Below, one piece after another: positions 24,366 to 48,019 of a stretch of 64,000 nucleotides of DNA (within the stretch, counting starts at the first letter, position 1; every line of letters starts with the position of its first letter). The position numbers were made by a program, and so were the translations under genes. The notes below the pieces were generated by a model. That model was not told the origin of the DNA and ran no database searches. It worked only from the letters and a program-made list of their open reading frames with translations. Location: contig NC_013530.1 of assembly GCF_000024965.1 (NCBI RefSeq), forward strand, positions 682,001 through 746,000, given 5' to 3'. This DNA is from Xylanimonas cellulosilytica DSM 15894. Lineage in GTDB: Bacteria; Actinomycetota; Actinomycetes; Actinomycetales; Cellulomonadaceae.

Positions 24366-24413
24366 GGTGGTTGAGCCTGTCGAAACCCTTGGGTTGAGCC
24401 AGTCGAAACCACC
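24366..24413. repeat. Palindromic repeat locus 1 (between rpmJ and rpsM)
   Basis: Two direct copies of GGTTGAGCC(T/A)GTCGAAACC in tandem, flanked by GGT on the left and ACC on the right, so the block starts GGTGGTT and ends AACCACC like the family at the other four loci. It occupies part of the 198-nt gap inside the ribosomal alpha operon. Confidence 0.85.
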
Positions 24414-24546
24414 ACCCAGCGCATCGCCACAAAGCCGCTCCTGACCCAGGAGGCGGTGGAACCCTCGGCCCGGAGGCCGGGGCCCGCAAGCCCGCGGGAC
24501 GACGATGCGGAAGACCTCCGGTGAAGTCACAGGAGCCGTCAGGCAC

Positions 24547-24921
24547 ATGGCACGTCTTATCGGCGTCGACCTCCCCCGCGAGAAGCGGGTCGAGATCGCG
24601 CTCACCTACATCTACGGCGTCGGCCGTACCCGCGCGTCGCAGACGCTCGAGGCGACGGGCATCAGCCCGGACGTCCGCGTCAAGGACCTCGACGACGCGC
24701 AGCTCGTCGCTCTCCGCGACTACCTCGAGGGCAGCTTCAAGCTCGAGGGTGACCTCCGCCGCGAGGTTGCCGCCGACATCCGCCGCAAGGTGGAGATCGG
24801 CACCTACCAGGGTCTGCGCCACCGTCGCGGGCTGCCGGTGCGCGGTCAGCGCACGAAGACCAACGCGCGTACCCGCAAGGGTCCGAAGCGCACCGTCGCG
24901 GGCAAGAAGAAGGCCCGCTGA
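24547..24921 (+). CDS. rpsM: 30S ribosomal protein S13
   Basis: 124 aa, usual length; head protein touching P-site tRNA. ATG at 24547 gives [21 protein letters not shown]; the in-frame start at 24505 adds residues that are not family-like. The helix-two-turn-helix GIGxxRA-type [18 protein letters not shown] and basic tail [17 protein letters not shown] are present. A CAGGAG lies 12 nt upstream, a loose spacing. Confidence 0.96.
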
Positions 24922-24962
24922 CGCGCCGTCAGCGACCCAGGATTTAGGAGAGAACGAAGCAC

Positions 24963-25370
24963 ATGCCTCCCAAGACTCGTGCCGCCGCCGGCACGCGCAA
25001 GCCGCGCCGCAAGGACAAGAAGAACGTCCCGCTCGGCCAGGCGCACATCAAGAGCACGTTCAACAACACGATCGTCTCGATCACCGACCCGACCGGTGCC
25101 GTGATCGCGTGGGCCTCTGCCGGCCACGTCGGCTTCAAGGGTTCGCGCAAGTCGACGCCGTTCGCCGCGCAGCTCGCCGCCGAGTCGGCCGCCCGCCGCG
25201 CCCAGGAGCACGGTGTCAAGAAGGTCGACGTCTTCGTCAAGGGCCCGGGTTCCGGTCGTGAGACCGCCATCCGCTCCCTGCAGGCGACCGGCCTCGAGGT
25301 CGGCTCGATCCAGGACGTGACGCCCCAGGCGCACAACGGCGTTCGCCCGCCGAAGCGCCGCCGCGTCTGA
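24963..25370 (+). CDS. rpsK: 30S ribosomal protein S11
   Basis: 135 aa, usual length; platform protein near the mRNA exit. The [20 protein letters not shown] segment and C-terminal [18 protein letters not shown] are hallmarks. rpsD, which follows rpsK in many bacteria including mycobacteria, is absent; rpoA is next after a 151-nt gap with two hairpins. Confidence 0.97.
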
Positions 25371-25380
25371 CCTTCCCGAC

Positions 25381-25410
25381 CGGCTCGGGCACCCTGCGGT
25401 GCCCGAGCCG
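25381..25410 (+). terminator. Hairpin 1 between rpsK and rpoA
   Basis: A perfect 13-bp stem, CGGCTCGGGCACC at 25381-25393 with 25398-25410, and a CTGC tetraloop. It is terminator-like without a U-tract. Confidence 0.65.
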
Positions 25411-25419
25411 ATCGACCCT

Positions 25420-25451
25420 GGCCGGGCGGACGAGGCTCGTCCGTCCCGGCC
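25420..25451 (+). other. Hairpin 2 between rpsK and rpoA
   Basis: GGCCGGG (25420-25426) plus CGGACGA pairs with TCGTCCG and CCCGGCC (to 25451) with one bulged T. It follows hairpin 1 by 9 nt. Confidence 0.55.
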
Positions 25452-25521
25452 GCTGCGAGTCGATGTCCCGCGCAACCTGTGATGCGTCAAATAGCGGACG
25501 CACACCGAAAGGACAAGCACA

Positions 25522-26526
25522 GTGCTGATCGCACAGCGCCCCACCCTGACCGAAGAGGTCATCTCGGAGAACCGCACCCGGTTTGCCATCGAGCCGCTGG
25601 AGCCGGGCTTCGGCTACACGCTCGGCAACTCGCTGCGCCGGACCCTGCTGTCGTCCATCCCGGGCGCGGCCGTCACCTCCATCCGCATCGACGGTGTGCT
25701 CCACGAGTTCACCACCGTGCCGGGGGTGAAGGAGGACGTCACCGAGATCATCCTCAACATCAAGAACCTCGTGGTCTCCTCGGAGAACGACGAGCCGGTC
25801 GTCATGTACCTGCGCAAGCAGGGTGCCGGGGCTGTCACCGCCGCGGACATCGTCCCGCCGGCGGGCGTCGAGGTGCACAACCCCGACCTGCACATCGCCA
25901 CGCTGAACGACAAGGGCAAGCTCGAGATCGAGCTGACCGTCGAGCGTGGCCGTGGCTACGTCTCCGCCGCCCAGAACAAGTCGCTGGACGCCGAGATCGG
26001 CCGCATCCCGGTCGACTCGATCTACTCGCCGGTCCTCAAGGTCACGTACAAGGTCGAGGCCACCCGTGTGGAGCAGCGCACGGACTTCGACAAGCTGATC
26101 GTCGACGTCGAGACGAAGCCGGCCATCACGCCGCGCGACGCGCTCGCCTCCGCCGGCAAGACGCTCGTCGAGCTGTTCGGCCTCGCCCGCGAGCTGAACG
26201 TCGAGGCCGAGGGCATCGAGATCGGCCCGTCGCCGACGGACTCCGCGCTGGCCGCGGACCTGGCGCTGCCGATCGAGGAGCTCAACCTCACGATCCGCTC
26301 GTACAACTGCCTCAAGCGCGAGGGCATCCACCAGGTCGGTGAGCTCGTCGCGCGCAGCGAGGCGGACCTGCTCGACATCCGTAACTTCGGTGCGAAGTCG
26401 ATCAACGAGGTCAAGGAGAAGCTGGCCGAGCTCGGCCTGGCGCTCAAGGACTCGCCGCTCGACTTCGACCCGTCCGCCTCGTTCTACGACGGCGGCGACG
26501 ACACGGCGTACGACGAGCAGTACTGA
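25522..26526 (+). CDS. rpoA: RNA polymerase alpha subunit
   Basis: 334 aa. GTG at 25522 after GAAAGGA. The N-terminal dimerisation domain carries [28 protein letters not shown] (in pieces). The C-terminal domain begins near residue 250, with [20 protein letters not shown] and [20 protein letters not shown] contacting UP elements and activators. The tail is acidic. Confidence 0.98.
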
Positions 26527-26544
26527 CATTCCCTGCTTCGGCAG

Positions 26545-26578
26545 CCCCGCCGGCGCGGCCTAGCGCCGCGCGGCGGGG
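26545..26578 (+). other. Hairpin between rpoA and rplQ
   Basis: A near-perfect GC-rich stem, CCCCGCCG... at 26545-26559 with ...CGGCGGGG ending 26578, one bulged base, and a CTAG-centred loop. It may reduce read-through into rplQ or stabilise the rpoA 3' end. Confidence 0.55.
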
Positions 26579-26602
26579 AACCCCCTCAAGGAGAACCCGA
26601 TA

Positions 26603-27139
26603 ATGCCTACCCCCACCAAGGGTCCGCGGCTCGGCGGTGGCCCGGCTCACGAGCGTCTGATCCTCGCGAACCTCGCCACGGCGCTCTTCGAGCACGGCCG
26701 CATCACCACCACCGTCACCAAGGCGAAGCGCGTCCAGCCGCTGGCCGAGCGTCTCATCACGTTCGCGAAGCGCGGCGACCTGCACGCCCGCCGTCGCGTC
26801 CTGACCGTCGTCCGTGACAAGGGCGTCGTGCACACGCTGTTCACCGAGATCGCCCCGGCCGTGGCCGAGCGCAACGGTGGCTACACGCGCGTCACCAAGG
26901 TCGGCAACCGCAAGGGCGACAACGCCCCCATGGCCGTCATCGAGCTCGTGACCGAGCCCGTGAGCCCGAAGCAGGCCGTCGTCAAGGAGGCCGAGAAGGC
27001 CGCCAAGAAGGCTGCGCCGAAGAAGGCCGCCAAGGTCGAGGAGCCCACGGTCGAGGAGACCGTCGAGACCCCGGCCGAGGCCGAGGTCGTCGAGGCTGCC
27101 GCCGAGGAGACCAAGACCGAGGAGACCAAGGAGGCCTGA
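26603..27139 (+). CDS. rplQ: 50S ribosomal protein L17
   Basis: 178 aa; tunnel-exit protein. Core of ~120 residues, [34 protein letters not shown] (in pieces) onward, then a ~60-residue tail of alternating Lys/Ala and then Glu/Val/Thr residues, as often seen in actinobacteria. AAGGAG lies at 26588-26593. Last gene of the alpha operon. Confidence 0.97.
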
Positions 27140-27160
27140 GCCTCCTCTCGTCCCCGCCCC

Positions 27161-27193
27161 GAGGGCCCCGCACCGACACGGTGCGGGGCCCTC
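27161..27193 (+). terminator. Terminator after rplQ
   Basis: A perfect 14-bp stem, GAGGGCCCCGCACC at 27161-27174 with 27180-27193, and loop GACAC. Confidence 0.85.
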
Positions 27194-27250
27194 GCTGCTG
27201 TGCAGCCTCGCTCCCTGCTGCGCGCGCCGCGCGCCCGCCCGGGGCAGAGT

Positions 27251-27292
27251 TGTCAGATGCACACGAGCCCTCGGGCTGGCGTGCATCTGACA
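27251..27292. repeat. 42-bp palindrome A (left of the hydrolase gene)
   Basis: Begins TGTCAGA and ends TCTGACA; with flanking bases the perfect outer stem is 14 bp (27249-27262 with 27281-27294) and an inner AGCCC/GGGCT stem closes it. It aligns at 30 of 42 positions with the palindrome at 28059-28100. Confidence 0.8.
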
Positions 27293-27309
27293 ACCACGGG
27301 GGGCAGCGA

Positions 27310-28056
27310 GTGAGCGGGGACGGGGTTCGGGTGCCGGTCGTGTTCGTGCACGGGGCGCGTACCTCCCGCACCATGTGGCGCGCCCAGCTCGCAGCGCTCG
27401 ACGCCGCGGGGGTCGACGCGGCCGCCGTCGACCTGCCCGCGCACGGGGAGCGGCGTGGCGAGCGGTTCACCGTCGACGGCGCTGTCGCCGTCGTGCACGA
27501 TGCCGTCGACGCGCTGGGGGGCCGCGCTCTCGTCGTCGGGCTGTCGCTCGGCGGGTACGTCGCCATCGAGCACCGGGCGCGGTACCCGGAGCAGTCGGCC
27601 GGTCTGGTCGCGTCGGGGTGCTGCACGCCGCCGCAGTCGCGCCTGCGCGACGCGTGGACGGGTGCGTCGAGGCTGCTCGAGCGCAGCCCTGGCCAGGGGG
27701 CGTGGCTCAACGACCGGCTCGTCGGCCTCATGCTCGACGACGACGCCGCGCGCGACGTCGCAGCCGGCGGCTATGCCCTGGACGCCATGACGGACGTGCT
27801 GCGGGAGGTCGGCGGGATCGACTCCCTCGCGGCGCTGCGGCGGGGGACCAGCCCGGTGTGGATCGTCAACGGCCGCTGGGACCACTTCCGCGGCGGCGAG
27901 CGTCGCGCGGTGGCGGCGGCCCGGGCGAGCGGGGCGCCGACGCGCCTGGTCATCGTGCCGCACGCCCGCCACACGGTGAGCCTGGACGCCCCGGTGGCGT
28001 TCGCCCGCGTGATCCTTGAGGCCGCGGCGCGCTGCTCTCAGCCCACGCGCGCCTGA
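27310..28056 (+). CDS. Alpha/beta-fold hydrolase
   Basis: 248 aa from the GTG at 27310, chosen because the fold starts at once with VRVPVVFVHGARTSRTMW (HG oxyanion motif); the 5' extension to 27181 would run through palindrome A. The nucleophile elbow GLSLGG gives the catalytic Ser. The acid is probably the Asp in NGRWDHF, and the His is in PHARHTVSLD. The substrate is unknown; haloperoxidase/esterase-like members look similar. It sits between rplQ and truA, which are adjacent in many actinobacteria, and is bracketed by two 42-bp palindromes, which suggests insertion. Confidence 0.88.
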   Translation: MSGDGVRVPVVFVHGARTSRTMWRAQLAALDAAGVDAAAVDLPAHGERRGERFTVDGAVAVVHDAVDALGGRALVVGLSLGGYVAIEHRARYPEQSAGLVASGCCTPPQSRLRDAWTGASRLLERSPGQGAWLNDRLVGLMLDDDAARDVAAGGYALDAMTDVLREVGGIDSLAALRRGTSPVWIVNGRWDHFRGGERRAVAAARASGAPTRLVIVPHARHTVSLDAPVAFARVILEAAARCSQPTRA

Positions 28057-28058
28057 GC

Positions 28059-28100
28059 TGTCAGACCCACGCCAGGGTCAGGGCTCGCGTGGCTCTGACA
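28059..28100. repeat. 42-bp palindrome B (right of the hydrolase gene)
   Basis: Begins TGTCAGA and ends TCTGACA, the same 7-bp ends and same 42-bp length as palindrome A. The outer 14-bp stem (28059-28072 with 28087-28100) has one mismatch. It starts 2 nt after the hydrolase stop and may also act as terminator between the convergent hydrolase and ROK genes. Confidence 0.8.
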
Positions 28101-28111
28101 CGTCGGGTTGG

Positions 28112-28879
28112 TCAGCCCCACGTCTCGCGCGGGAGCTCCCACGCCCGCGCCCCACCCACCAGCGCGGCGGAGTTCGGCACGATGACGACGTCGTCGCCGA
28201 GGCGGGCCAGCGCTGTCGGGGTGATGCGACGCGAGTTGCCGCCGCCGAGGTAGAGGCGGTCCCACCAGAACACGGGGCGCAGCCCTTCCACCAGCGCCAC
28301 GACCCGCCGCGACCACAGGCCGTCGCCGAGGCGGCGGCGCTCCGGCTCGCCGATGTACTCGTCGTAGGTCGCGAAGCGGCGGAACGGTGCGTGCGACAGC
28401 TCGAGGTGCGGGGCGAGGCTGCCGCCGTCGAACAGTGCCGACCCCAGCCCCGTGCCGAGCGTGAGGACGAGCTCGAACCCGGAGCCGGCGATCACCCCGG
28501 CCCCGTGCACCTCGGCGTCGTTGAGCACCAGCGCGGGCACGCCGAGCCGCTCCGCGACGGCGGCCCGGACGTCGAAGCTCGCCCACGCCTCCCGCAGCTC
28601 GGGCTCCACGCGGGAACGTGGGCCCGATCGGGTGATGTAGTGCGGCGTGTGCACGACGACGCCGTGGCGGATCATCCCCGGCATCCCGACGGTGACGCGG
28701 TGCGCGTGCGGCAGGCCGCCGGCGATCTCGGCGATCGTGTCGACGAGCCGGGTCGGGGGCAGGGGGTACGGCGTCGGCACGCGGACCGGCGCGGCGTGGG
28801 CGGTGCCGGCCTCGTCGAGCACGGCAGCCTTGATGCCGCCGCCGCCGCAGTCGACCGCGAGGGTGAGCGTCTCGGACAC
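28112..28879 (-). CDS. ROK-family kinase, polyphosphate-glucokinase-like
   Basis: 255 aa from GTG at 28879, the first start before the N-terminal phosphate motif LAVDCGGGGIKAAVLDEAG. A second glycine-rich motif LTLGTGLGSALFDGG and LNDAEVHGAG (candidate catalytic Asp) follow, then LYLGGGNSRR. This arrangement, without a long zinc-motif region, resembles actinobacterial polyphosphate/ATP glucokinases (PpgK), but sugar and phosphate donor are inferred only. Divergent from truA, and part of the two-gene interruption between rplQ and truA. Confidence 0.85.
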   Translation of the reverse strand: MSETLTLAVDCGGGGIKAAVLDEAGTAHAAPVRVPTPYPLPPTRLVDTIAEIAGGLPHAHRVTVGMPGMIRHGVVVHTPHYITRSGPRSRVEPELREAWASFDVRAAVAERLGVPALVLNDAEVHGAGVIAGSGFELVLTLGTGLGSALFDGGSLAPHLELSHAPFRRFATYDEYIGEPERRRLGDGLWSRRVVALVEGLRPVFWWDRLYLGGGNSRRITPTALARLGDDVVIVPNSAALVGGARAWELPRETWG

Positions 28880-29043
28880 CCGCCCATCATCGCCGAGCAG
28901 CGCCGACGACGCCGGGCCGCTGCGTCGAGACCATCGCGTCGAGAGCATCGCGTCGTGGGGCATTGCGGCGTCGGGGCGCGGCGGCGTCGCGTCACGCCGC
29001 CCACCGGACGAGGGGCGCGCCGTCGTCGGGCGAGAATGTTCCG

Positions 29044-29940
29044 GTGAGCGACGGGGAGATGGTGCGCGTCCGGCTGGACCTCGCCTATGACGGCACACAG
29101 TTCGCGGGCTGGGCGCGGCAGCCCGCGCTGCGCACCGTGCAGGGCGTGCTGGAGGACGGGCTGGAGCAGATCGTACGGACCGCGCCGCGAGGGCTGCCCG
29201 CGCCGCGCCTGACGGTGGCGGGCCGTACGGACGCCGGGGTGCACGCCAGGGGCCAGGTCGCCCACGTCGACCTGCCCGTCGAGCGGTGGGTGGCCCTGCC
29301 CGGGCGCTCCGACCGGGAGCCGGGCGAGTCGCTGGTCACGCGCCTCACCGGCGTGCTGCCCCCCGACGTCGTCGTCCACCGGGCCGCGCTCGCCCCCGCG
29401 GGCTTCGACGCGCGCTTCAGCGCGCTCTACCGCCGCTACGCGTTCCGGATCGCCGACGACGCAGCGGCGCGCGACCCGCTGCACCGCGCCCACGTGCTGT
29501 GGCACCGGCGCCCGCTCGACGTCGCCGCGATGCACGACGCCGTCCAGCCGCTGCGCGGGGTGCGCGACTTCGCGGCCTACTGCAAGCCGCGCCCGGGGGC
29601 GACGACGATCCGCGAGCTCAAGGAGCTGTCGTGGACCCGGCCGGCGGACGGGCCGGACGCAGGGCTGGTCGTCGCGCGCGTGGTCGCGGACGCGTTCTGC
29701 CACAACATGGTGCGTGCCCTCGTGGGGGCGTCGATCGCCGTGGGGGAGGGCCGCAAGCCTGTCTCCTGGCCCGCGGAGGTGCTCGCGTCGAAGCAGCGTG
29801 AGCGGGCCGCCGCGGTGGTGCCGCCCCGGGGACTCACCCTGGAGGAGGTCGTCTACCCGCCGGACGCGGACCTGGCGGGCCGCGCCGACCGCATCCGTGC
29901 CCTTCGGACTGACGAGGACGTCACGCCGTTCGGTGGTTGA
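29044..29940 (+). CDS. truA: tRNA pseudouridine(38-40) synthase
   Basis: 298 aa. Isomerises U38-U40 in the anticodon arm. GTG at 29044 puts the core RLDLAYDGTQFAGWARQ at residue 10; longer starts add unrelated residues. The catalytic Asp is D63 in AGRTDAGVHA. The second half has FCHNMVRALVGASIAVGEGRK. GAGAAT lies 6 nt before the start and could be a leaderless -10. A repeat cluster begins 23 nt after the stop. Confidence 0.96.
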   Translation: MSDGEMVRVRLDLAYDGTQFAGWARQPALRTVQGVLEDGLEQIVRTAPRGLPAPRLTVAGRTDAGVHARGQVAHVDLPVERWVALPGRSDREPGESLVTRLTGVLPPDVVVHRAALAPAGFDARFSALYRRYAFRIADDAAARDPLHRAHVLWHRRPLDVAAMHDAVQPLRGVRDFAAYCKPRPGATTIRELKELSWTRPADGPDAGLVVARVVADAFCHNMVRALVGASIAVGEGRKPVSWPAEVLASKQRERAAAVVPPRGLTLEEVVYPPDADLAGRADRIRALRTDEDVTPFGG

Positions 29941-29962
29941 GGTCCCGCCTGCGGCCCGCCTC

Positions 29963-30223
29963 GGTGGTTGAGCCTGTCGAAACCACCCCAGACCCGTGGT
30001 TTCGACAGGCTCAACCACCGAGGGGCGGGCGGGGTGGTTTCGACGGGCTCAACCACCGGGTGGGGCGTGTGTGGACTGGGTGGTTTCGACAGGCTCAACC
30101 ACCGAGGGGCGGGCGGGGTGGTTTCGACGGGCTCAACCACCGGGTGGGGCGTGTGTGGACTGGGTGGTTTCGACAGGCTCAACCACCGAGGGGCGTGGGG
30201 TGGTTTCGGCGGGCTCGACCACC
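29963..30223. repeat. Palindromic repeat locus 2 (seven copies)
   Basis: Copies start at 29963 (inverted), then 29996, 30033, 30079, 30117, 30163 and 30199. Each is about 25 bp: ends GGTGGTT and AACCACC around an 11-bp core TCGACAGGCTC. Copies at 30033 and 30117 have CGACGGGCTC, and the last one is more diverged (TCGGCGGGCTCG). Bases 30020-30103 and 30104-30187 are an exact 84-bp tandem duplication. The block fills the truA-DUF5709 gap of 291 nt; no gene is seen in it. Confidence 0.95.
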
Positions 30224-30231
30224 GGGGTGGG

Positions 30232-30648: not shown

Positions 30649-30787
30649 GCCCCCACGATCCTCCCGCCCGCGCCGGAGCGCAGCACGAGGCACCCCGCGG
30701 GGCACCCCGCGCGGCGGTGTGCCGCCGCGGTTAACGTCGTTCTGATCGGGCACGTCCGGTGCGTGCCCACCGACTCTGGAGCCCACC

Positions 30788-31393: not shown

Positions 31394-31427
31394 CGGGGCG
31401 CTCGCGGCCAGCGTGACCGACCTCGCT

Positions 31428-31457
31428 TTGGTGATCGCTTCGTCCACCGGCTAGGAT
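31428..31457 (+). promoter_or_regulatory. Probable promoter of rplM-rpsI
   Basis: TTGGTG at 31428-31433, an 18-nt spacer, and TAGGAT at 31452-31457, followed by a ~160-nt leader to rplM. Confidence 0.55.
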
Positions 31458-31624
31458 GGGCAGTCGTTGTGCCTTAGTTCCGACGTCCCGCGATCGCAGC
31501 GCGCCCACTCGCACCGGCGGTCGCATGGCCCGGATGTCATCACATGGAGCGTCCCGCGCACAACGCTGACTCTTCGGGCACCGCTTCTTGCCCGACGACA
31601 CCGAACACGAAAAGGTTACGAACC

Positions 31625-39123: not shown

Positions 39124-39143
39124 CCCTGCCGAACCGGACCCCC

Positions 39144-39295
39144 GGTGGTTGAGCCTGTCGAGACCCGACCCCCGGTGGTTGAGCCTGTCGAGACCCGACC
39201 CCCGGTGGTTGAGCCTGTCGAAACCACCCCGCGCTGGAAGTGGTTTCGACAGGCTCAACCACCGGAGTGGGGTGGTTTCGACAGGCTCAACCACC
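39144..39295. repeat. Palindromic repeat locus 3 (five copies)
   Basis: Three copies in the GGTTGAGCCTGTCGA orientation start at 39144, 39174 and 39204 with an exact 30-bp period; the first two end in GAGACC rather than GAAACC. Two copies in the opposite orientation follow at 39240-39263 and 39271-39295. The halves can pair with each other. Fills the acpS-LLM gap. Confidence 0.95.
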
Positions 39296-39309
39296 GGGGC
39301 TGGGGGGCG

Positions 39310-40440: not shown

Positions 40441-40441
40441 C

Positions 40442-40488: not shown

Positions 40489-40620
40489 CCACCGACACAC
40501 CTGGGGGACACCTGTGGTGCCGGCGGCCGTCGACCTCCGGTGCCGGGGTCCGGTGCCCGGGGTTCGGTGCCGGGGTTCGGTGCGACGGGCCGTCCGCGTC
40601 GTTGCGGCGATGATGGGCAC

Positions 40621-42297
40621 ATGATCGAGGCCTGGTCCGCTGCCCGCGTCGGTGCCGCCGAGGAGCCGTTGCTGGCCGCCGGTGTGCCGCTCATGGAGCG
40701 GGCCGCGTTCGCGCTCGTCGGCATCGTGCGGCGTGACCTGGCCCGACGCCGGGGGGCCGTGCGCGGGGCGCGGGTCGCGCTGCTGGTGGGGCCTGGCAAC
40801 AACGGCGGTGACGCGCTGTTCGCGGGGGCGTACCTGGCCCGGCGGGGAGTCGGCGTGACGGCGTACCTGGCGGCCGACCGGGTGCACGAGCCCGGCCTCG
40901 CCGCTCTCCGCGCGGCCGGTGGACGCGTGGTCACCCTCGGCACGGAGCCAGACGACGACGCCGCGGGCACGACCACGCCGACCTGCGCAGACGCGGCCGC
41001 GGCCGTCGCGCGCTGCGACGTCGTCGTCGACGGGCTGCTCGGCATCGGCGCGACCGGCGCGCTGCGTGGCACCGCGGCCCGGCTGGTCGAGGCTCTGAAC
41101 GAGGCGCTCGGCGAGGTGCTGGACGACGCGCCGGTGGGGCCGCTGCCCGGCCGTGACCGGGTACGGCCGTGGGTGGTGGCCGTCGACGCCCCGTCCGGGA
41201 TCGGCGTCGACGACGGCACGCTGCCCGGCCCGGTCCTGCCCGCCGACCGCACGGTGACCTTCGGGGTGGCCAAACCGGGACTCCTGCTGCCCCCGGCGGC
41301 GCACGTCGCGGGCGCCCTGACCGTCGTCGACCTCGGGCTGGAGCCAGCCGGGCCCCCCGCCGTCGCACGCCTGGAGGACGACGACGTCGCCGCCCGGTGG
41401 GTGGTCCCCGGGCCGCGGGACCACAAGTACACGCGCGGCGTCGTCGGCGTCGTCGCCGGGACCGCGACGTATCCCGGGGCGGCGGTGCTGGCCGCGAGCG
41501 CCGCCGTGCAGGCTGGCGCGGGCATGGTCCGCTATCAGGGGCCGGACGTCGTCGGGCGGAGCGTGCTGGCGGCGCGGCCGGAGGTCGTGACGGCGGGCGG
41601 GCGCGTGCAGGCGTGGGTGCTGGGGCCGGGGCTGCCCGCGACGGGGGGCGACGACGGTCAGCGTGAGCGGGCGCGGGCGGCGCTCGCGGCGGCGTCGGGG
41701 TGGCCGGCGGAGGCGCAGCGGGTGCTACCTGCGGGGTCGGAGAGCGCGGTGCCCGCGGTGGTGGACGCGGGGGCGCTCGCGCTGCTGGACCAGCCGTGCC
41801 CGGGGTGGGTGGTGCTCACCCCGCACGCGGGCGAGCTGGCGACGCTGCTCGCCGCGCGCGGTGAGGGGGTCGAGCGCGCGGACGTCGAGGCGGAGCCGTT
41901 GCGCTGGGCGCGCCGCGCGCACGAGCTGACGGGGGCGACGGTGCTGCTCAAGGGGGCCGCGACCGTCGTCGTCGGTCCGGGGGCGACGGTGTTCGTGCAG
42001 GCGGAAGCCCTGGCGTGGGCGGCGACGGCGGGCTCGGGTGACGTGCTGGCGGGCCTGCTGGGCGCGATGCTCGCGGCCCGCTCCGTCGAGCTGGTGGCGC
42101 GCCCGGACCGGGCGGCGGAGGTGGCCGCGGCGGCGGCCCTCGTCCACGGCCGAGCCGCGCACCGCGCCACGCCGGGTGGCCCGGCGCCGGCCCTGGCGAT
42201 CGCGGGCGCCCTCCCGGCGACGATCGCCGCCCTCCTCGCCTCGCCGCCCACGGGGGCGCCGGTCAGGCGGGGAGGTGCGACTCGATCTCGTCGATGA
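40621..42297 (+). CDS. nnr: Bifunctional NAD(P)HX epimerase/dehydratase
   Basis: 558 aa; repairs hydrated NADH and NADPH. ATG at 40621; upstream frame extensions run through the palindrome region. The N-terminal epimerase (YjeF_N, ~1-230) has LVGPGNNGGDALFAGAYLARRG and VDAPSGIGVDDG. The C-terminal ADP-dependent dehydratase has HKYTRGVVGVVAGTATYPGAAVLAA, LTPHAGELATLL and the catalytic TAGSGDVLAGLLGAML. The last 35 nt overlap the convergent glutathione peroxidase gene. Confidence 0.94.
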   Translation: MIEAWSAARVGAAEEPLLAAGVPLMERAAFALVGIVRRDLARRRGAVRGARVALLVGPGNNGGDALFAGAYLARRGVGVTAYLAADRVHEPGLAALRAAGGRVVTLGTEPDDDAAGTTTPTCADAAAAVARCDVVVDGLLGIGATGALRGTAARLVEALNEALGEVLDDAPVGPLPGRDRVRPWVVAVDAPSGIGVDDGTLPGPVLPADRTVTFGVAKPGLLLPPAAHVAGALTVVDLGLEPAGPPAVARLEDDDVAARWVVPGPRDHKYTRGVVGVVAGTATYPGAAVLAASAAVQAGAGMVRYQGPDVVGRSVLAARPEVVTAGGRVQAWVLGPGLPATGGDDGQRERARAALAAASGWPAEAQRVLPAGSESAVPAVVDAGALALLDQPCPGWVVLTPHAGELATLLAARGEGVERADVEAEPLRWARRAHELTGATVLLKGAATVVVGPGATVFVQAEALAWAATAGSGDVLAGLLGAMLAARSVELVARPDRAAEVAAAAALVHGRAAHRATPGGPAPALAIAGALPATIAALLASPPTGAPVRRGGATRSRR

Positions 42298-42757
42298 TCT
42301 CGGGGGCGTCCGGGAGGGTGCGCGGGTCGTAGCGGTGGACGGTGCCGCCGGGGAGGACGAGGAACTTCTCGAAGTTCCAGCGGATGCGGCCGTCGTGGCC
42401 GCCGGCGTCGGCGGTCTTCTTGAGGGCCTCGTACAGCGGGGCGGTGCGGTGGCCGTTGACCCGGATGCGGTCCATGACGGGGAACGTCACGCCGTACGTC
42501 GTGGAGCAGAACTCGGCGATCGCCTCGTTGGAGCCGAGCTCCTGCAGGAACTGGTTCGAGGGGAAGCCGACGACGGTGAGTCCGCGGTCGCCGTACTTCT
42601 CCTGGAGCGTCTCGAGCTGCTCGTACTGCGGGGTCAGCCCGCACCGGGACGCCACGTTGACCACCAGGACGACGCGGTCGTCCCCGGCGAGCTGTGCCAG
42701 CGTCGTCGTCGTCCCGTCCATGCGCCGGAACGGGATGTCGTAGATCTCCTTGCCCAT
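42263..42757 (-). CDS. Glutathione peroxidase family protein (Cys type)
   Basis: 164 aa from ATG at 42757 (AGGATGGGG upstream); an in-frame ATG at 42766 adds three residues. The peroxidatic residue is C39 in NVASRCGLTPQY, with Gln in FPSNQF, and Trp and Asn in RWNFEKFLV completing the tetrad. As it lacks selenocysteine and the organism group lacks glutathione, it probably uses thioredoxin (family knowledge). Convergent with and overlapping nnr by 35 nt. Confidence 0.93.
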   Translation of the reverse strand: MGKEIYDIPFRRMDGTTTTLAQLAGDDRVVLVVNVASRCGLTPQYEQLETLQEKYGDRGLTVVGFPSNQFLQELGSNEAIAEFCSTTYGVTFPVMDRIRVNGHRTAPLYEALKKTADAGGHDGRIRWNFEKFLVLPGGTVHRYDPRTLPDAPEIIDEIESHLPA

Positions 42758-42794
42758 ATGCCCCATCCTGCACCCGTGATGGGACCATGAGGTG

Positions 42795-43724
42795 ATGCCC
42801 CGCCATCCTCTTCCTGTGCGAGACGGTCTGAACCCGACGCGGCTCGTGCTCCCGCACGACGTCGAGTCCGTGGTCCGGTGGCGCACGGCGGTCGAGTACC
42901 TGGAGGGACGGTTCCCCGACGACGTCGTACGGCTGCGGGAGAAGGTCGCGGCGGGGGAGGTGGTGACCGGGCGCGGGGTCCGCGTCGACGTCGACACCCC
43001 GTACGAGCCGCGCGGCTTCCTGTACCTGTACCGCGACCCGCCGTCCGACGAGCCGCGCGCCCTGTCCCTCGCGGAGATCGAGGTGCTGCACCGGGACGAG
43101 AACCTGCTGGTGGTGGACAAGCCGCACCTGGTGGCGACGATGCCGCGCGGGCGGTGGGTCACCCAGACGGTGCTCGTCCACCTGCGCCGCACGCTGGACC
43201 TGCCGGAGCTCGCACCGGCCCACCGCTTGGACCGCCCGACGGCGGGCGTGCTGGTGCTGACCGTGCGGGCCTCCGTGCGCGGCGCCTACCAGGACCTGTT
43301 CCAGGAGCGCCGGGTGCGCAAGGTATACGAGGCCGTCGCCCCGCTGCCCGGCGACGGCGTGGAGCTCCCGACGACGGTGCGCTCCCGCATCGTCAAGCAC
43401 CGCGGAGTCGCGCCCGCCCAGGAGGAGCCGGGGGAGCCCAACGCCGAGTCCCGCATCGACCTGATCGGTCGGGACGAAGGGCGCGGGCTCGGCCTGTACC
43501 GCCTCGAACCGCACACCGGCAAGACGCACCAGCTCCGCCTGCACCTGGCGAGCCTGGGGATGCCGATCCTGCACGACCCGTTCTGGCCCGTGCTGCGCCC
43601 CGACTCCGACGGCGACCCCGCGACCCCGCTGCAGCTCCTGGCCCGCTCGCTGACCTTCGCCGACCCGTTCACCGGCGAGCAGCGCACCTTCGCGTCGCGC
43701 CGCCGGCTCGCCGAATGGCGGTGA
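42795..43724 (+). CDS. RluA-type pseudouridine synthase
   Basis: 309 aa; start ATG 42795 or the GTG 3 nt earlier, neither with a clear Shine-Dalgarno. The catalytic Asp is D146 in AHRLDRPTAGVLVL; RRVRKVYEAVA and EPHTGKTHQLRLHLASLGMPILHDPFWP are family motifs. A ~75-residue N-terminal region (RWRTAVEYLEGRFPD...VRVDVDTPYEPRGFLYLYRDP) replaces a full S4 domain. RNA target not determinable; alr follows closely. Confidence 0.92.
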   Translation: MPRHPLPVRDGLNPTRLVLPHDVESVVRWRTAVEYLEGRFPDDVVRLREKVAAGEVVTGRGVRVDVDTPYEPRGFLYLYRDPPSDEPRALSLAEIEVLHRDENLLVVDKPHLVATMPRGRWVTQTVLVHLRRTLDLPELAPAHRLDRPTAGVLVLTVRASVRGAYQDLFQERRVRKVYEAVAPLPGDGVELPTTVRSRIVKHRGVAPAQEEPGEPNAESRIDLIGRDEGRGLGLYRLEPHTGKTHQLRLHLASLGMPILHDPFWPVLRPDSDGDPATPLQLLARSLTFADPFTGEQRTFASRRRLAEWR

Positions 43725-43737
43725 GAGGATGACGGGC

Positions 43738-45054
43738 GTGACGCCGTTCCCCATCGACTTCCCGGCCCGTGCCGTCGTCGACCTCGAGGCCGTGCGCGAC
43801 AATGTGCGTGCCCTGCGCGCGCACGCGCCGTCGTCGGCGCTCATGGCCGTGGTCAAGGCCGATGCCTACGGGCACGGGCTCGTGCCGACGGCGTGGGCGG
43901 CGCTCGCCGGCGGGGCCACCTGGCTGGGCGTCGCCCAGGCTGCCGAGGCGGTCGCTCTGCGCGCGGCGGGCATCGGGCCCGGCGACGCCCGCATCCTCAC
44001 CTGGCTGCACTCCCCGGGGGTGGACTTCGACCCGCTCGTCGCCGCCGACGTCGACGTGTCGGTCGCGGCGCCGTGGGCGCTCGACGGCGTCGCCGCGGCC
44101 GCCCGCGCGACCGGCCGCGTCGCGCGCGTGCACCTCAAGGTCGACACGGGGCTCGGCCGCAACGGCATCACGCCCGCCGACCTGCCGGCCGCCGCGGCAC
44201 GTGCCGCCGCGCTCGTCGCCGAGGGTGCGATCCACGTCGTGGGCGTGTGGACGCACCTCGCGTACGCCGACGAGCCCGGCCACCCCACCATCGCCGCGCA
44301 GCGCGTGGTGCTCGACGACGCCGTCCGCACCGTCGAGGCCGCCGGCATCGAGGTGGAGCTGCGGCACGCCGCCAACTCGGCCGCCACCCTCACCGCACCC
44401 GCGCTGCACTACGACCTCGTGCGGCCCGGCATCTCCGTGTACGGGTTCTCCCCGGTACCGGGCGTGGCGACGGCGTCGTCCTTCGGGCTGCGGCCCGCGA
44501 TGACGCTGCAGGCGCGGCTCGCCACCGTCAAGAACGTCGAGGCCGGGCAGGGCGTCTCCTACGCCCACCGGTACGTGACCACCCAGGCGACGCAGCTCGG
44601 CGTCGTCCCGCTCGGGTACGCCGACGGGATCCCGCGGCATGCGTCGGGCGGGGACGACGGGCCCGGCGGACCGGTGTACGTCGGCGGACCTGCGGGCGCC
44701 GGGATCGGGCCCGCTGGCGACGGCGACGGCGGCCGCGTCGTGCGCGTCGCCGGACGGGTGTGCATGGACCAGGTGGTGCTCGACCTCGGTCCCTACGCCA
44801 CCGAGCAGCCCGGCGACGTCGTCACCCTCTTCGGCTCCACCGACGGGCTCGCGCACTCCGCGTCCGTGCCGAGCGCGGAGGACTGGGCGGCCGCCGCCGG
44901 CACGATCTCCTACGAGATCGTCACGCGGATCGCGCCGCGCATCCCGCGCGTCTACGTCGGCACGGAGGTGCTGGGCGAGCGGGGCACAGCGGTCGGCCGA
45001 GGGCGCACGACGCCGATCGGCGACGCGCTCGCGGAGCAGGTCGGATGGTCGTGA
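43738..45054 (+). CDS. alr: Alanine racemase
   Basis: 438 aa; PLP enzyme making D-Ala for peptidoglycan. GTG at 43738 has GAGAGG 9 nt upstream; the in-frame ATG at 43729 abuts that site and is less likely. PLP Lys is K40 in AVVKADAYGHG; the catalytic Tyr is in GVSYAHRY. A Gly/Asp-rich insert of about 30 residues (GGDDGPGGPVYVGG...GDGDGG) in the C-terminal barrel precedes VRVAGRVCMDQ and makes the protein longer than usual. Its stop overlaps tsaE. Confidence 0.95.
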   Translation: MTPFPIDFPARAVVDLEAVRDNVRALRAHAPSSALMAVVKADAYGHGLVPTAWAALAGGATWLGVAQAAEAVALRAAGIGPGDARILTWLHSPGVDFDPLVAADVDVSVAAPWALDGVAAAARATGRVARVHLKVDTGLGRNGITPADLPAAAARAAALVAEGAIHVVGVWTHLAYADEPGHPTIAAQRVVLDDAVRTVEAAGIEVELRHAANSAATLTAPALHYDLVRPGISVYGFSPVPGVATASSFGLRPAMTLQARLATVKNVEAGQGVSYAHRYVTTQATQLGVVPLGYADGIPRHASGGDDGPGGPVYVGGPAGAGIGPAGDGDGGRVVRVAGRVCMDQVVLDLGPYATEQPGDVVTLFGSTDGLAHSASVPSAEDWAAAAGTISYEIVTRIAPRIPRVYVGTEVLGERGTAVGRGRTTPIGDALAEQVGWS

Positions 45055-45566
45055 CGGTCGACCTGCCCTCCGCCGACGCGACGCGGGCGCTCGGGGCAGC
45101 GCTCGCAGACATCCTGCGCGCGGGCGACCTGGTGATCCTCACCGGGGACCTCGGCGCCGGGAAGACGACGTTCACCCAGGGCCTCGGCGCGGCGCTCGGC
45201 GTGCGCGGGCACGTCTCGTCGCCCACGTTCATCGTCGCGCGCGAGCACGCCGCGGGCCTGCGCCCCGACGGCACGCGCGGCCCGGGCCTGGTGCACGTCG
45301 ACGCCTACCGGCTGGGCGGCCTCGACGAGCTCGACGCCCTCGACCTGGACTCCTCGCTCGAGGACTCCGTGACCGTCGTCGAATGGGGCGCCGGGCTGGC
45401 CGAGGCGCTCACCGAGGACCGGCTCGAGATCGAGCTCGTGCGACCGCGCGGCGGGCTCCTCGACCTGGAGAACCCCGAGGCAGGGGTACGGCACGCGACG
45501 CTCCGCGGCGTCGGCCCCCGCTGGGCCGACATCGACCTGAAGACGCTCGCGAACCCCGCCGACTGA
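45045..45566 (+). CDS. tsaE: tRNA t6A synthesis ATPase TsaE
   Basis: 173 aa; ATPase that resets the TsaB-TsaD complex in threonylcarbamoyl-adenosine (t6A37) formation. ATG at 45045 overlaps the alr stop region. Walker A GDLGAGKTT is at 34-42, with SSPTFIVAREH and HVDAYRLGGLDEL after it and VEWGAGL near the end. tsaB would normally follow at once; here a repeat locus intervenes. Confidence 0.95.
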   Translation: MVVTVDLPSADATRALGAALADILRAGDLVILTGDLGAGKTTFTQGLGAALGVRGHVSSPTFIVAREHAAGLRPDGTRGPGLVHVDAYRLGGLDELDALDLDSSLEDSVTVVEWGAGLAEALTEDRLEIELVRPRGGLLDLENPEAGVRHATLRGVGPRWADIDLKTLANPAD

Positions 45567-45580
45567 CGCGCCCCCGCCCC

Positions 45581-45694
45581 GGTGGTTGAGCCTGTCGAAA
45601 CCACCCCACAGCGCTGGGTGGTTTCGACAGGCTCAACCACCGGGGTGGCGCTGGGTGGTTTCGACAGGCTCAACCACCGGAGGGCTCAACCACC
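45581..45694. repeat. Palindromic repeat locus 4 (three copies plus a partial)
   Basis: Copies at 45581-45605 (GGTTGAGCC orientation), 45617-45641 and 45654-45678 (opposite orientation), then a partial GGCTCAACCACC at 45683-45694. It occupies almost all of the tsaE-tsaB gap. Confidence 0.95.
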
Positions 45695-45707
45695 GGGGCT
45701 TGAAACG

Positions 45708-45713
45708 TACGCT
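45708..45713 (+). promoter_or_regulatory. Leaderless -10 box of tsaB
   Basis: TACGCT ends 6 nt before the tsaB GTG and begins 13 nt after the last partial repeat. Confidence 0.5.
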
Positions 45714-45719
45714 TGACCC

Positions 45720-46445
45720 GTGGCCGTGCTTGCGATCGATACCTCCGCCGCCGTGGCCGTCGCGCTCGTGTCCGACGACGGCAGGCGCCTGGCCGCCCGC
45801 TCCGTCGACGAGCGCAGGCGGCACGCCGAGCAGCTCGCCCCGATGATCGCCGAGGTGCTCGCCGACGCCGGGTGCACGCGCGCCGACCTCACCGCCGTCG
45901 TCGCCGGCACGGGCCCCGCACCGTTCACCGGCCTGCGCGTCGGGCTGGTCACCGCCCGCACCCTCGCCCTCGCGCTCGGCGTGCCCGTGCTGGGTGTCGC
46001 GTCGCTCGACGCCGTCGCCGTGCAGGCCGTCGCCGACCTGGGCCTCACCCCCGACGACGAGGTGCTCGTGGCCACCGACGCCCGCCGCCGCGAGGTGTAC
46101 TGGGCGCGGTACCGGGTCATCGCCCACGAGGGTCCGCACGGCGTCCCCGTCGTCGAGACCGTCGCCGGGCCCGACGTCGGCAAGGCGGCCGCCGTCGCCG
46201 CAGTGCACGGCACACCTCCCGTGGGTGGGCGGCTCGCCGTCGTCGGCGAGGGTGCGGCGCTCTACCCGGACGCGCTGACCGCCGACGAGGACGCCCCCAC
46301 GCTGCCCGACGCCGCCGTGCTCGCACGTGTCGCGCTCCAGCGGCGCGACGCCGGGCTGGAGCTGCCGACCGAACCGCTGTACCTGCGCCGCCCCGACGTG
46401 CACGAGCCCACCCGGGCAGTGCCCGCGACCGCCGGAGGTGCGTGA
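45720..46445 (+). CDS. tsaB: tRNA t6A synthesis protein TsaB
   Basis: 241 aa; ASKHA-fold partner of TsaD. GTG at 45720 gives MAVLAIDTSAAVAVALVSDDG. EQLAPMIAEVLADAG and VAGTGPAPFTGLRVGLVTARTLALALG are diagnostic. The C-terminus ends PLYLRRPDVHEP before the rimI overlap, the usual family ending. Confidence 0.95.
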   Translation: MAVLAIDTSAAVAVALVSDDGRRLAARSVDERRRHAEQLAPMIAEVLADAGCTRADLTAVVAGTGPAPFTGLRVGLVTARTLALALGVPVLGVASLDAVAVQAVADLGLTPDDEVLVATDARRREVYWARYRVIAHEGPHGVPVVETVAGPDVGKAAAVAAVHGTPPVGGRLAVVGEGAALYPDALTADEDAPTLPDAAVLARVALQRRDAGLELPTEPLYLRRPDVHEPTRAVPATAGGA

Positions 46446-47032
46446 TGGTCGACGACGCCACCCTGACCCCGGCCGGTCCCGCGACGTCGGGGGCGCCCGT
46501 CCGGCTGCGCGCCCTGCGACGCGACGACTTCGACCGCATCCTCGAGCTCGAGCGCGAGCTCTTCGGCCTCGGCGCCTGGACCTACGGCATGCTCGCCGAG
46601 GAGCTCGCCGGGTGGGGGCGCTGGTACATCGTCGCGGAGGAGGTCGTCCCCGACGTCCTCGGGCGGGCGGGGGCGGGCCGCGCCCGCGGCACCACCGTCG
46701 GCCAGGTCGCGGCCGCCCGCGTCGTCGGGTACGCGGGCCTGTGGTTCGACGGCGACGTCACCCAGGTCATGACCCTCGGCGTCGACCCGGACTGGCAGCG
46801 GCGCGGCGTCGGGCGCACGCTCATGGACGCGCTGATCGCCCGGTCGCGCGAGCTGCGGGCCAGCGCCGTCCTGCTCGAGGTGCGTGTCGACAACGAGCCG
46901 GCGCTGGACCTCTACGCCGACCTCGGCTTCGAGCGGATCGGCCTGCGCAAGCGGTACTACCAGCCCGAGAACATGGACGCCTACACGATGCGGCTGGACC
47001 TCGCAGCCCGCACCCAGGAGGACGCCTCGTGA
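46445..47032 (+). CDS. rimI: Ribosomal-protein-alanine N-acetyltransferase-like GNAT protein
   Basis: 195 aa; GNAT fold. ATG at 46445 overlaps the tsaB stop with GGAGG upstream. [23 protein letters not shown] opens the fold; acetyl-CoA-binding [19 protein letters not shown], then [31 protein letters not shown] follow. Assigned RimI on sequence and on its place after tsaB; substrate protein is inferred. Stop overlaps the rhodanese start. Confidence 0.9.
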
Positions 47033-47928
47033 CCGACCCGACCGACCCGCGCGCGCGGGTGCTCGTCACCGTCGCGGAGCTGGCCGCGGACCTCGGCCTC
47101 GACGGCGTCGACCCCACGCCGGGGCCGCCCGTGCTGCTCGACGTGCGGTGGGCGCTCGCCGCCGCAGGCCACACCTTCGACGGGCTCGCCCACTACCGCG
47201 CCGGGCACCTGCCGGGTGCCGTCTTCGCCGACCTGGAGACCGAGCTCGCGGCCGCACCCTCGGCCGCCCAGGGGCGGCACCCGCTGCCCAGCACGGCCCA
47301 GTTCCAGGCGGCGGCCCGCCGCTGGGGCCTGCGCAACGACTCGCGCGTCGTCGTCTACGACGCCACCGGCGGCATGTCGGCAGCCCGCGCGTGGTGGCTG
47401 CTGCGGTACTTCGGCCTGCGCGACGTGCGCATCCTCGACGGTGGGCTGCCCGCCTGGCAGCGGGCCGGGCACCCGCTCGAGGTGCACGACGTCGTCGCAC
47501 CTCCCGGCGACGTCGTGCTGAGCCCCGGCCACCTGCGCACGCTCGACGCGTCCGGCGCGGCGGCGCTCGCGGCATCGGAGGACGGCGTGCTGCTCGACGC
47601 CCGCGCGGGCGAGCGGTACCGCGGCGAGACCGAGCCGGTCGATCCCCGCGCCGGGCACATCCCCGGTGCCGTCTCGGCGCCGACGTCGGAGAACCTTACG
47701 GACGAGGGATCGTTCCTGCCGACGGCCGCGCTGCGCGACCGGTTCGCGGCCCTGGGGGCGACGGCGGGCACGCGCGTGGGCGTGTACTGCGGCAGCGGCG
47801 TGACGGCCGCGCACGAGGCGGCAGCCCTCGCCGCGGCGGGCGTCGAGGCGATCCTCTACCCGGGCTCGTGGAGCCAGTGGTCGAACGACGCGTCGCGGCC
47901 GGTCGCCACCGGAGCGACGCCGGTCTGA
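47029..47928 (+). CDS. Thiosulfate sulfurtransferase (tandem rhodanese)
   Basis: 299 aa with two rhodanese domains. The N-terminal, inactive one has Asp in place of the nucleophile ([15 protein letters not shown]). The C-terminal, active one has C254 in [30 protein letters not shown] and [14 protein letters not shown] are domain signatures. It is joined to rimI by a 4-nt overlap, GTGA, so it was added to the tsaB-rimI transcript. tsaD usually comes next. Confidence 0.93.
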
Positions 47929-47931
47929 CGG

Positions 47932-48019
47932 GGTGGTTTCGACAGGCTCAACCACCGATCCGGAGGTTGAGCCCTCCGGTGGTCGCGCCGCTCCGGTGGT
48001 TGAGCCTGTCGAAACCACC
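47932..48019. repeat. Palindromic repeat locus 5 (two copies plus degenerate core)
   Basis: Copy at 47932-47956, opposite-orientation copy at 47995-48019, and between them a degenerate piece (GGAGGTTGAGCC...CCGGTGGTCG). Lies between the convergent rhodanese and nitroreductase genes. Confidence 0.9.

Follow-up and report, generated by a model that had tools for sequence, protein, structure and literature searches.

Repeat copies in the 64-kb window

The window analysed is a 64-kb stretch of the genome of Xylanimonas cellulosilytica DSM 15894 (hereafter G000), in which a short hairpin-forming element recurs at five sites. Coordinates are given with the strand that reads tag-stem-GAG-CYTGT-CGA-stem. 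Upstream of rpsM (S13 domain), and preceded by a 37-codon open reading frame (ORF) that is probably rpmJ, lies a full element (24366..24390, +) with a degenerate tandem copy (24389..24413, +). The stop codon of truA (29044-29940) is the TGA of a 5′ half element, GGTGGTTGAG (29932..29941, +). Next, the full element at 29963..29987 (+) and the element at 29995..30019 (−) form the left and right arms of an inverted pair whose tags point outward, and then come a copy with the loop CCCGT (30033..30057, −), a full element (30079..30103, −) and another CCCGT-loop copy (30117..30141, −), the last two within an 84-bp tandem repeat, a further full element (30163..30187, −) and a degenerate copy (30199..30223, −). 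At the third site, two copies in 30-bp tandem units (39144..39168 and 39174..39198, both +) precede a full element (39204..39228, +), which is the left arm of an inverted pair with the element at 39239..39263 (−); the 16 nt between the two 19-mers, ACC and GT ends included, form the pair spacer (39226..39241), and a full element (39271..39295, −) closes the array. Between tsaE and tsaB, an inverted pair of full elements (left arm 45581..45605, +; right arm 45617..45641, −) is followed by a full element (45654..45678, −) and by a 5′ half element (45684..45694, −) situated 5′ of that copy on the same strand. The fifth site consists of a full element (47932..47956, −), the tags-inward neighbour of the next copy, a degenerate 5′ half (about 47960..47973, +) and a full element (47995..48019, +).

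Scanning the window with the 11-mer TCGACAGGCTC (at most one mismatch) gave 26 matches, against a mean of 3.14 and a maximum of 9 in 100 shuffles. The 19-mer GGTTGAGCCTGTCGAAACC (at most four mismatches) recovered 19 copies, distributed over five sites and all outside script-called genes, in agreement with the roughly 19 copies and the coordinates of the initial annotation.

Genome-wide abundance and placement

Throughout G000, the 25-mer (at most three mismatches) occurs in 589 copies (299 + 290), against 0 for the reversed pattern, and the suspected excess over chance is thus borne out. Chance, a compositional repeat or an assembly artefact is a negligible explanation: a G+C content of 71% favours such strings, but the controls refute it, with 0 in this genome and 0–2 control copies per genome in 50 other genomes, and the stems covary (see below).

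In an 864-kb sample of G000, 97 of 139 copies lie in gaps between genes, 40 in called genes and 2 at edges, so that the initial claim of copies nowhere in coding sequence stands for the window and not beyond it. Density per kb is 2.79 in convergent gaps, 0.40 in codirectional gaps, 0.09 in divergent gaps and 0.055 in coding sequence, and no clear replichore strand bias was seen. The element therefore has the traits by which REPs are generally recognized: it is short, palindromic, highly repeated and mostly extragenic. Arrays within genes occur in conserved genes, and some copies fall in protein linkers. The array in a class-V aminotransferase gene is missing in all 5 alignable congeners, and the ClpB-like linker differs in length between aligned species. 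A stop codon is supplied by the element in 2 of the 719 genes examined.

The element is missing from three of the window sites in 17 of 17 feasible congener comparisons (5, 5 and 7 gaps), where the best 19-mer match has 6–9 mismatches. Two outcomes had been named in advance as speaking against a dispersed family, a lack of empty orthologous sites and a lack of enrichment, and neither came true. Insertion boundaries could not be placed exactly, nor a target duplication recognized, by comparison with these congeners, whose flanks are about 70–90% identical and whose gaps and linkers vary as well.

Selection for transcription termination or for stabilization of mRNA 3′ ends would fit the strong convergent-gap bias, the sense orientation of the copy nearest the gene end in 39 of 56 cases (which are not independent) and the unrelated hairpins that fill one of the compared gaps in two congeners. 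We nevertheless consider such a function quite unlikely as the explanation of the family, given that no T-run, as expected of an intrinsic terminator, is present at the two sites read, that copies also lie between tsaE and tsaB, upstream of rpsM and within conserved genes, that sense and antisense copies are nearly balanced in codirectional gaps (17/13) and that the sites are not common to congeners.

Structure of the element

The element is composed of an unpaired 5′ tag (CCGGT in G000), a short stem and the invariant core GAG-CYTGT-CGA. Conservation is one-sided in the sequence logo of the 139 sampled copies (1.2–1.7 bits for 5′ CCGGT versus 0.6–1.2 bits for 3′ ACC), and the description of a symmetric 25-bp palindrome has to be abandoned. 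Among the rarer loops listed, CNNGY is the majority pattern. The Watson–Crick stem is mostly 4–5 bp with an 11-nt loop, which shrinks to 5 nt only if the G.A pairs proposed below are counted. ViennaRNA folds the GAG strand into a 7-bp stem with an 11-nt loop and the opposite strand about equally well.

To measure stem covariation, we took one copy from each of 119 cross-phylum loci; an exact 15-mer served to select them, which kept the core constant in this test. It reached 0.475 versus 0.159 in shuffled sets (sd 0.016); 0 of 500 shuffles attained this value, and slid versions gave at most 0.208. Outside G000 the tags read CCGTTCG or TGTCA, the latter being the majority in Bacteroidota, with CCTCA and CGTCA in single copies each. 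The two 5′-GA steps of the core may form tandem sheared G.A pairs in the folded single strand.

The string GTTGAGC of G000 fits the integron attC motif GTTRRRY, and recognition of a folded single strand would be an idea common to both. The resemblance to attC was rejected; the stems in other phyla do not fit GTTRRRY. The class CTGAG-CGNAG-NGAA, considered as a candidate close relative, was found at 4 places in 3 of the 119 loci.

Inverted pairs and lone half elements

Neighbouring copies at most 60 bp apart comprise 24 tags-outward, 7 tags-inward and 54 tandem arrangements. Comparison of the pair spacers, mostly 16–24 nt between 19-mers, gave 68 similar pairs versus a shuffled mean of 0.3 (maximum 1); unlinked loci share spacers, in clusters of 11, 9, 4, 3, 2 and 2. 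Spacers resembling 39226..39241 occur at 10 other G000 loci, and in the resulting 11-locus cluster 7 loci had been fetched by similarity to that stretch and 4 had not. The spacer loci included 20 from G000 and all 20 from a second genome, G002, chosen by similarity to a window stretch; in these partly selected loci the 52 spacers from G000 and the 18 from G002 have no cluster in common, which suggests expansion after that split.

From the shared spacers and the tags-outward excess, the inverted pair with its spacer looks like the copied unit, as in REPINs. Together with the copy number, these observations uphold the REP/REPIN-like character proposed in the initial annotation, and judged from sequence patterns, REPIN-like dispersal is very probable.

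Lone half elements are one-sided. Strict halves of the 5′ type number 34 in the G000 sample, 10 in the 20 G002 loci and 18 in the 119 cross-phylum loci, against no strict 3′ half in any of the three sets; among the 18, one array (L072) contributes six, and at least two (L095, L152) have the look of full copies. Element identity stops at the loop, 1–3 letters past GAG, in 47 of 47 half-like strings (at least one of these letters being forced by the pattern), and most halves lie upstream of a full copy (33/34 in G000, 10/10 in G002 and 15/18 across phyla). In 200 kb of Escherichia coli K-12, the REPs gave no lone 5′ halves and 32 within full REPs; the count of 3′ halves (53) cannot be used, as the probe and its own complement differ by two letters.

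The 5′ halves ending at the loop, their position upstream of full copies and the local growth of tandem arrays would also be produced if hairpins were cut or stalled replication and existing copies were then used in repair, through template switching or gene conversion, so that they multiplied and spread with no enzymatic transposition. This explanation seems rather unlikely; taken alone, it would account neither for the constancy of the core and the 5′ tag in different phyla nor for pairs at sites previously free of any copy.

Distribution and search for a mover

Similar strings had been thought common in related actinobacterial genomes, which is true only in part: the 25-mer is patchy, in 14 of the 59 genomes searched (G000 counted), and the core also occurs outside actinobacteria. 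By record title, genomes of at least eight phyla carry several copies of it; many of these records are metagenome bins and possibly contaminated. One query against plasmid and phage collections matched one Arthrobacter plasmid and no phage; in viral contigs, the exact 15-mer is present in at least 120 stretches, with 10 CCTGT hairpins with stems of at least 5 among the matches listed. Rfam gave four matches, all far under gathering scores. Among 31 of the 34 papers containing the core strings, none is concerned with a repeat family, as judged by title or start of abstract, and the encoded peptides had no literature match.

The initial annotation saw no transposase near the repeats, and for the Y1/RAYT type PF01797 has no match in 11 genomes of the genus, G000 included, four of the ten congeners being less than 80% complete. 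Among 248 Actinomycetota, it was also not found in the 4 genomes with at least seven cores, and of 21 cross-phylum genomes with at least 60 cores, 9 have no match either. Thirty Y1 loci (93 kb, one locus per genome, a minority of the Y1 places listed) contained one strict core, so the REPs flanking a RAYT that mark RAYT-associated GTAG REPs are not seen here. Clustering of ORFs at most 300 bp from cores in 149 loci revealed no autonomous partner; a single cluster recurred close to cores beyond two loci, a large family that is near them in 4 of its 13 loci.

REPINs and GTAG REPs mobilized by RAYT (TnpA-REP), as described in PMC3116915 and PMC8266576, share with our family the unpaired 5′ tag, the imperfect hairpin, inverted pairs with spacers as the unit, hundreds of copies and a bias towards gene ends. 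They differ in the GTAG tag, here CCGGT in G000 and CCGTTCG or TGTCA elsewhere, and in the core GAG-CYTGT-CGA; spacers mostly of 16–24 nt, lone 5′ halves and the absence of a PF01797 match in the genus further separate our family from REPINs with RAYT. The main rival to our reading is a classical RAYT-mobilized REPIN family of which the present copies are relics, the RAYT having been lost or being carried elsewhere in the genus. The tag, irregular hairpin, inverted pairs and spacers fit REPINs; E. coli genomes without RAYT still carry REPINs, according to PMC8049555; a PF01797 gene is present in 30 of 50 cross-phylum genomes and not found in 20 (completeness not given); and a RAYT could lie outside the assemblies or be too divergent for PF01797. 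Against this stand the 88 perfect copies among the 139 sampled in G000, the scarcity of cores at Y1 loci and the lack of any cluster shared by G000 and G002 spacers, which suggests expansion after the split, yet within a genus where PF01797 is absent from all 11 genomes (some incomplete). We regard loss of a RAYT as possible, though not as the favoured account.

With CGTC REPs, as described in PMC3733652, the family has in common the lack of a dedicated transposase gene beside the repeats, intragenic copies and a location in convergent and unidirectional gaps. Some tags here read TGTC-A, CGTC-A or CCTC-A, that of G000 being CCGGT, and the loop would be 5 nt if the proposed G.A pairs counted as stem. 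The text of that paper gives CGTC REPs loops of 4–5 nt, stems of 8–9 bp, CCA-like tails, rare clusters and a distribution over five phyla without Actinobacteria. Our family is set apart from CGTC REPs by this textual description, and overlap with some of those families is possible. Rickettsial RPE repeats, by their description in the same paper, likewise insert into coding sequences and add peptides, whereas the element described here also makes REPIN-like pairs.

Proposed mechanism and implications

We favour the view that the family is REPIN-type non-autonomous mobile DNA, probably moved in trans by an activity acting on single-strand hairpins. One DNA strand, when single-stranded, would fold through the G.A pairs of the core, and it is somewhat likely that the folded GAG strand is what is recognized. 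A trans-acting protein might then read the tag and core and copy or move the pair, much as TnpA-REP handles REPs with a GTAG tag; a mover other than a Y1 (PF01797) transposase is slightly less likely than not. More speculatively, processing could halt or cut at the loop and leave 5′ half copies behind. Tentatively, the elements could belong to a bacteria-wide superfamily, defined by an invariant GAG-CNNGY-CGA core with a 5′ tag, whose inverted pairs would be spread by a widely distributed non-Y1/RAYT activity, with the 5′ halves as the footprint of loop processing.

RAYT-type transposases are the usual explanation of REPIN dispersal, and a large REPIN-like population is found here in a genus without a detected RAYT. 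Together with the presence of its core across many phyla, this population renders testable a question raised in print for CGTC repeats: what moves REPs that lack a transposase. A search for the protein could start from two tangible features, the invariant core and the one-sided halves. Genome annotation is affected as well, because the elements put extra peptides into conserved proteins and in a few genes provide the stop codon.

Copy number and anatomy of the element

A window scan with the 19-mer GGTTGAGCCTGTCGAAACC (up to four mismatches) returned 19 copies at five sites, and the element was found where the initial annotation had reported a 25-bp palindromic repeat (24366, 29963–30223, 39144–39295, 45581–45694 and 47932–48019). 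Allowing at most one mismatch, the 11-letter core has 26 window matches, where shuffled sequence gave 3.14 on average and 9 at most. The genome-wide count of the 25-mer, proposed in that annotation as a check, allowed up to three mismatches and gave 299 copies on the forward and 290 on the reverse strand (3,831,380 bases, two contigs), and none for the pattern read backwards. In an 864-kb sample (the window plus 40 spaced stretches), 88 of the 139 copies are perfect and 25 have one mismatch; the reversed control had no match at three or fewer mismatches and three matches at four. Copy density is uneven in the sampled stretches of the chromosome: those at 0–0.95 Mb hold 76 copies in 344 kb, those at 1.87–2.8 Mb hold 10 in 180 kb. 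At window positions 30079–30187 there is a tandem duplication of an 84-bp unit that includes two copies.

The sequence logo of the 139 copies is one-sided, with 1.2–1.7 bits for CCGGT just 5' of the stem versus 0.6–1.2 for the 3' ACC. The element is therefore a hairpin (GGTT ... AACC) enclosing GAG-CCTGT-CGA, with a tag on its 5' side, and not the symmetric palindrome first described, an impression explained by the tag, part of which is able to pair as well. On the strand that reads GAG, 5'-GA-3' faces 5'-GA-3'; judging from these letters, the core could form tandem sheared G·A pairs, then a G–C pair and a five-letter loop. Energy models give this strand the stem and an 11-letter loop only, and fold the opposite strand about equally well. 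For a Bacteroidota-like oligonucleotide the predicted fold was no better than those of its own shuffles.

A tag plus an irregular hairpin, read on one strand by TnpA-REP, is described in the accessible text of PMC8266576. Two REP superfamilies, GTAG and CGTC, are distinguished in PMC3733652, in the accessible text of which a dedicated transposase is apparently missing for the CGTC repeats and the word Actinobacteria does not occur. According to a 2025 survey (PMC12306157, accessible text), motifs from different genomes resemble one another relatively little. Searches of the accessible literature with core strings gave no description of this repeat; they covered text outside figures and supplements, and a match in a published figure is possible.

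Genomic placement

With our gene caller, copies were densest in convergent gaps (2.79 per kb; 65 of the 139 sampled copies), followed by codirectional gaps (0.40; 30 copies), divergent gaps (0.09; 2 copies) and coding sequence (0.055; 40 copies); two lie at sequence edges. The claim that copies occur nowhere in coding sequence thus holds in the window, where none of the 19 lies in a called gene, and fails in the larger sample. Among 20 in-gene clusters examined, the same reading frame continues on both sides of a copy at nine places, at one of them (locus L315) weakly, and each place includes a copy with at most two mismatches. According to Pfam, the host genes encode a prolyl oligopeptidase, a class-V aminotransferase, a family 3 glycosidase, LigD (two places), an ABC transporter, an FAD-binding protein, a FolB-HPPK fusion and a ClpB-like protein. 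Some of the remaining in-gene places are at gene ends, and in-gene copies with three or four mismatches may be chance matches. The overall placement fits insertion followed by loss of harmful cases.

Translated from the GAG strand, the element gives peptides such as PVVEPVETT, and from the opposite strand VSTGSTT or GGFDRLNH; such peptides recur within conserved proteins or at their termini (loci L038, L045, L298, L041 and other in-gene sites), and a search of the accessible literature with strings of this kind gave no match.

Several observations speak against a role in transcription termination as the main explanation: the sites read have no T-run, copies lie ahead of rpsM and in the gap separating tsaE from tsaB, and orientation in codirectional gaps is balanced (17 sense, 13 antisense). 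Termination as a secondary role draws some support from the copy nearest a gene end, which is in sense in 39 of 56 cases, these not being independent.

Probable dispersal as a paired unit

Comparison of orthologous gaps, also suggested initially, found the element absent: at three window sites, with 5, 5 and 7 congeners compared, there was no match to the 19-mer under six mismatches. One of these congeners, G002, carries 145–190 copies elsewhere. Its gap orthologous to window 29941–30231 (L510) is filled by a different repeat, GCTCCGGCTCAGGGCACGGGGCCCGGTGGTCGCCCTGAGCC..., and congeners G009 and G001 (L491, L492) have unrelated long hairpins in the convergent gap orthologous to 39124–39309. The class-V aminotransferase, which we take to be probably a cysteine desulfurase, has an array of four copies in a linker. 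The element is absent there from five congeners and two other genera (8 of 30 fetched loci were alignable, the X. cellulosilytica locus included); G009 and G002 carry unrelated extra sequence in this linker. The ClpB-like linker is a weak sign of insertion because its length varies among the five other species aligned (6 of 30 loci).

Neighbours at most 60 bp apart are arranged with tags outward (24) or inward (7) or in tandem (54). Among 52 tags-outward pairs from X. cellulosilytica and 18 from G002, the spacers, measured between 19-mers, gave 68 similar pairs at separate loci, against a mean of 0.3 and a maximum of 1 for shuffles that kept the three end letters. The inverted, tags-outward pair thus behaves as the copied unit, the defining trait of REPINs (defined in PMC3116915, accessible text), and the REPIN-like character first proposed for the family is borne out. 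The spacer clusters have 11, 9, 4, 3, 2 and 2 members, and none joins the two species. As twenty X. cellulosilytica loci and all G002 loci had been chosen by similarity to a window stretch, we note that the two largest clusters retain 4 and 5 members without such loci. All members of the cluster of 3 fall inside a stretch of about 5 kb, and in the cluster of 9 two are separated by 634 bases.

Half copies

Counted strictly (other arm missing, a full copy no more than about 130 bases away), the X. cellulosilytica sample has 34 lone 5' halves, 33 of them upstream of the full copy, and 20 G002 loci have 10, all upstream. In 119 cross-phylum loci there are 18 in 11 loci (15 upstream), of which at least two look like damaged full copies and six come from one array. 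No 3' half was found in any of the three sets. Exact matching identified 28 lone 5' halves, but four of these are full copies whose loop has six letters. Among 47 half-like strings collected more loosely (15 without a neighbour, chance matches among these 15), identity to the element stops 1–3 letters past GAG; the pattern itself fixes the first of these letters. Across 200 kb of E. coli K-12 sequence, lone 5' halves numbered 0, against 32 within REPs. We read this pattern as a putative trace left where the folded strand is cut, or the template switched, at its loop. Locus L072 (a Dehalococcoidia bin, ~5225–5400) holds an array of 14-base 5'-half units, TGTCGTCCTGAGCT, whose tag resembles the loop, as if the loop were the next unit's tag.

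Distribution in relatives and across phyla

The 25-mer is present in 14 of the 59 genomes searched, X. cellulosilytica included, with 0 to 190 copies in ten congeners. The 13-letter core occurs 505 times in X. cellulosilytica and 151, 145, 51, 27, 12 and, in the other five, at most 6 times in these congeners, several of which are incomplete assemblies. At least seven cores occur in 4 of 248 Actinomycetota genomes, X. cellulosilytica included. By raw count, 127 of the 248 carry one or more TGAGCYTGTCGAA, in many cases one TTGT copy alone.

In a collection of species genomes, CTTCGACARGCTCAG matched at least 119 stretches, with titles among the matches listed from Chloroflexi, Bacteroidetes, alpha-, beta- and gammaproteobacteria, Cyanobacteria, Armatimonadetes, actinobacteria, Eremiobacterota, Neomarinimicrobiota, Myxococcales and candidate phyla. 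By our estimate about a thousand chance matches to this 15-mer are expected, and the flanks were therefore tested for pairing. The first three positions beyond the fixed letters pair in 92%, 85% and 53% of 166 copies, versus 57%, 21% and 27% when the partner was shifted by one position. With one copy per locus (119 rows), stem covariation scored 0.475 versus 0.159 (sd 0.016) for shuffles, none of 500 reaching it, and at most 0.208 for slid partners; both sides changed in 147 cells, the two innermost pairs being uninformative as the search pattern fixes them. Fifty of the 119 genomes, which we picked to cover a wide range, have between 2 and 536 copies of TGAGCYTGTCGAA each, versus 0 to 2 for the control.

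The tag is CCGTTCG in Alpha- and Beta/Gammaproteobacteria, CCGCTCG in Chloroflexota and, more weakly, TGTCA in Bacteroidota. Rarer loops in the same frame gave 13 hairpins (stem of at least 5) at the cross-phylum loci versus 0–2 for nine permuted cores, and 12 versus 0–5, a weaker contrast, in the X. cellulosilytica sample. The rarer loops listed for both sets are CNNGY; a viral set also has two that do not fit. At L159 (Sphingobium algorifonticola) elements lie beside another hairpin class, CTGAG-CGNAG-NGAAG, with the GAG frame in common.

The putative mobilizing protein

The initial annotation noted no transposase near the copies and proposed a test for a RAYT-type (Y1) enzyme. A search with PF01797, the Y1 profile that covers IS200/IS605 and RAYT enzymes, found no match in X. 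cellulosilytica or its ten congeners, four of them less than 80% complete. PF01797 is present in 2 of 59 genomes, in 72 of the 248 Actinomycetota, where it is absent from all four core-rich genomes, and in 30 of the 50 cross-phylum genomes (absent from 20). Of the 21 cross-phylum genomes with at least 60 cores, 12 have it and 9 do not; Plantibacter, with 536 cores, and an Eremiobacterota bin, with 159, are among the nine. Around Y1 genes (30 loci, one per genome), 93 kb hold one strict core, and loose cores occur in three loci. According to the accessible text of PMC6006769, Actinobacteridae have Y1 subclass 1.1 only. Loss of a RAYT is a serious rival to a mover of another kind, because REPINs persist in E. 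coli genomes without one (PMC8049555, accessible text). The absence of PF01797 from part of the core-rich genomes, together with Y1 loci that are nearly free of cores, suggests that the family is or was moved either by another protein or by a RAYT that has been lost or lies outside these assemblies.
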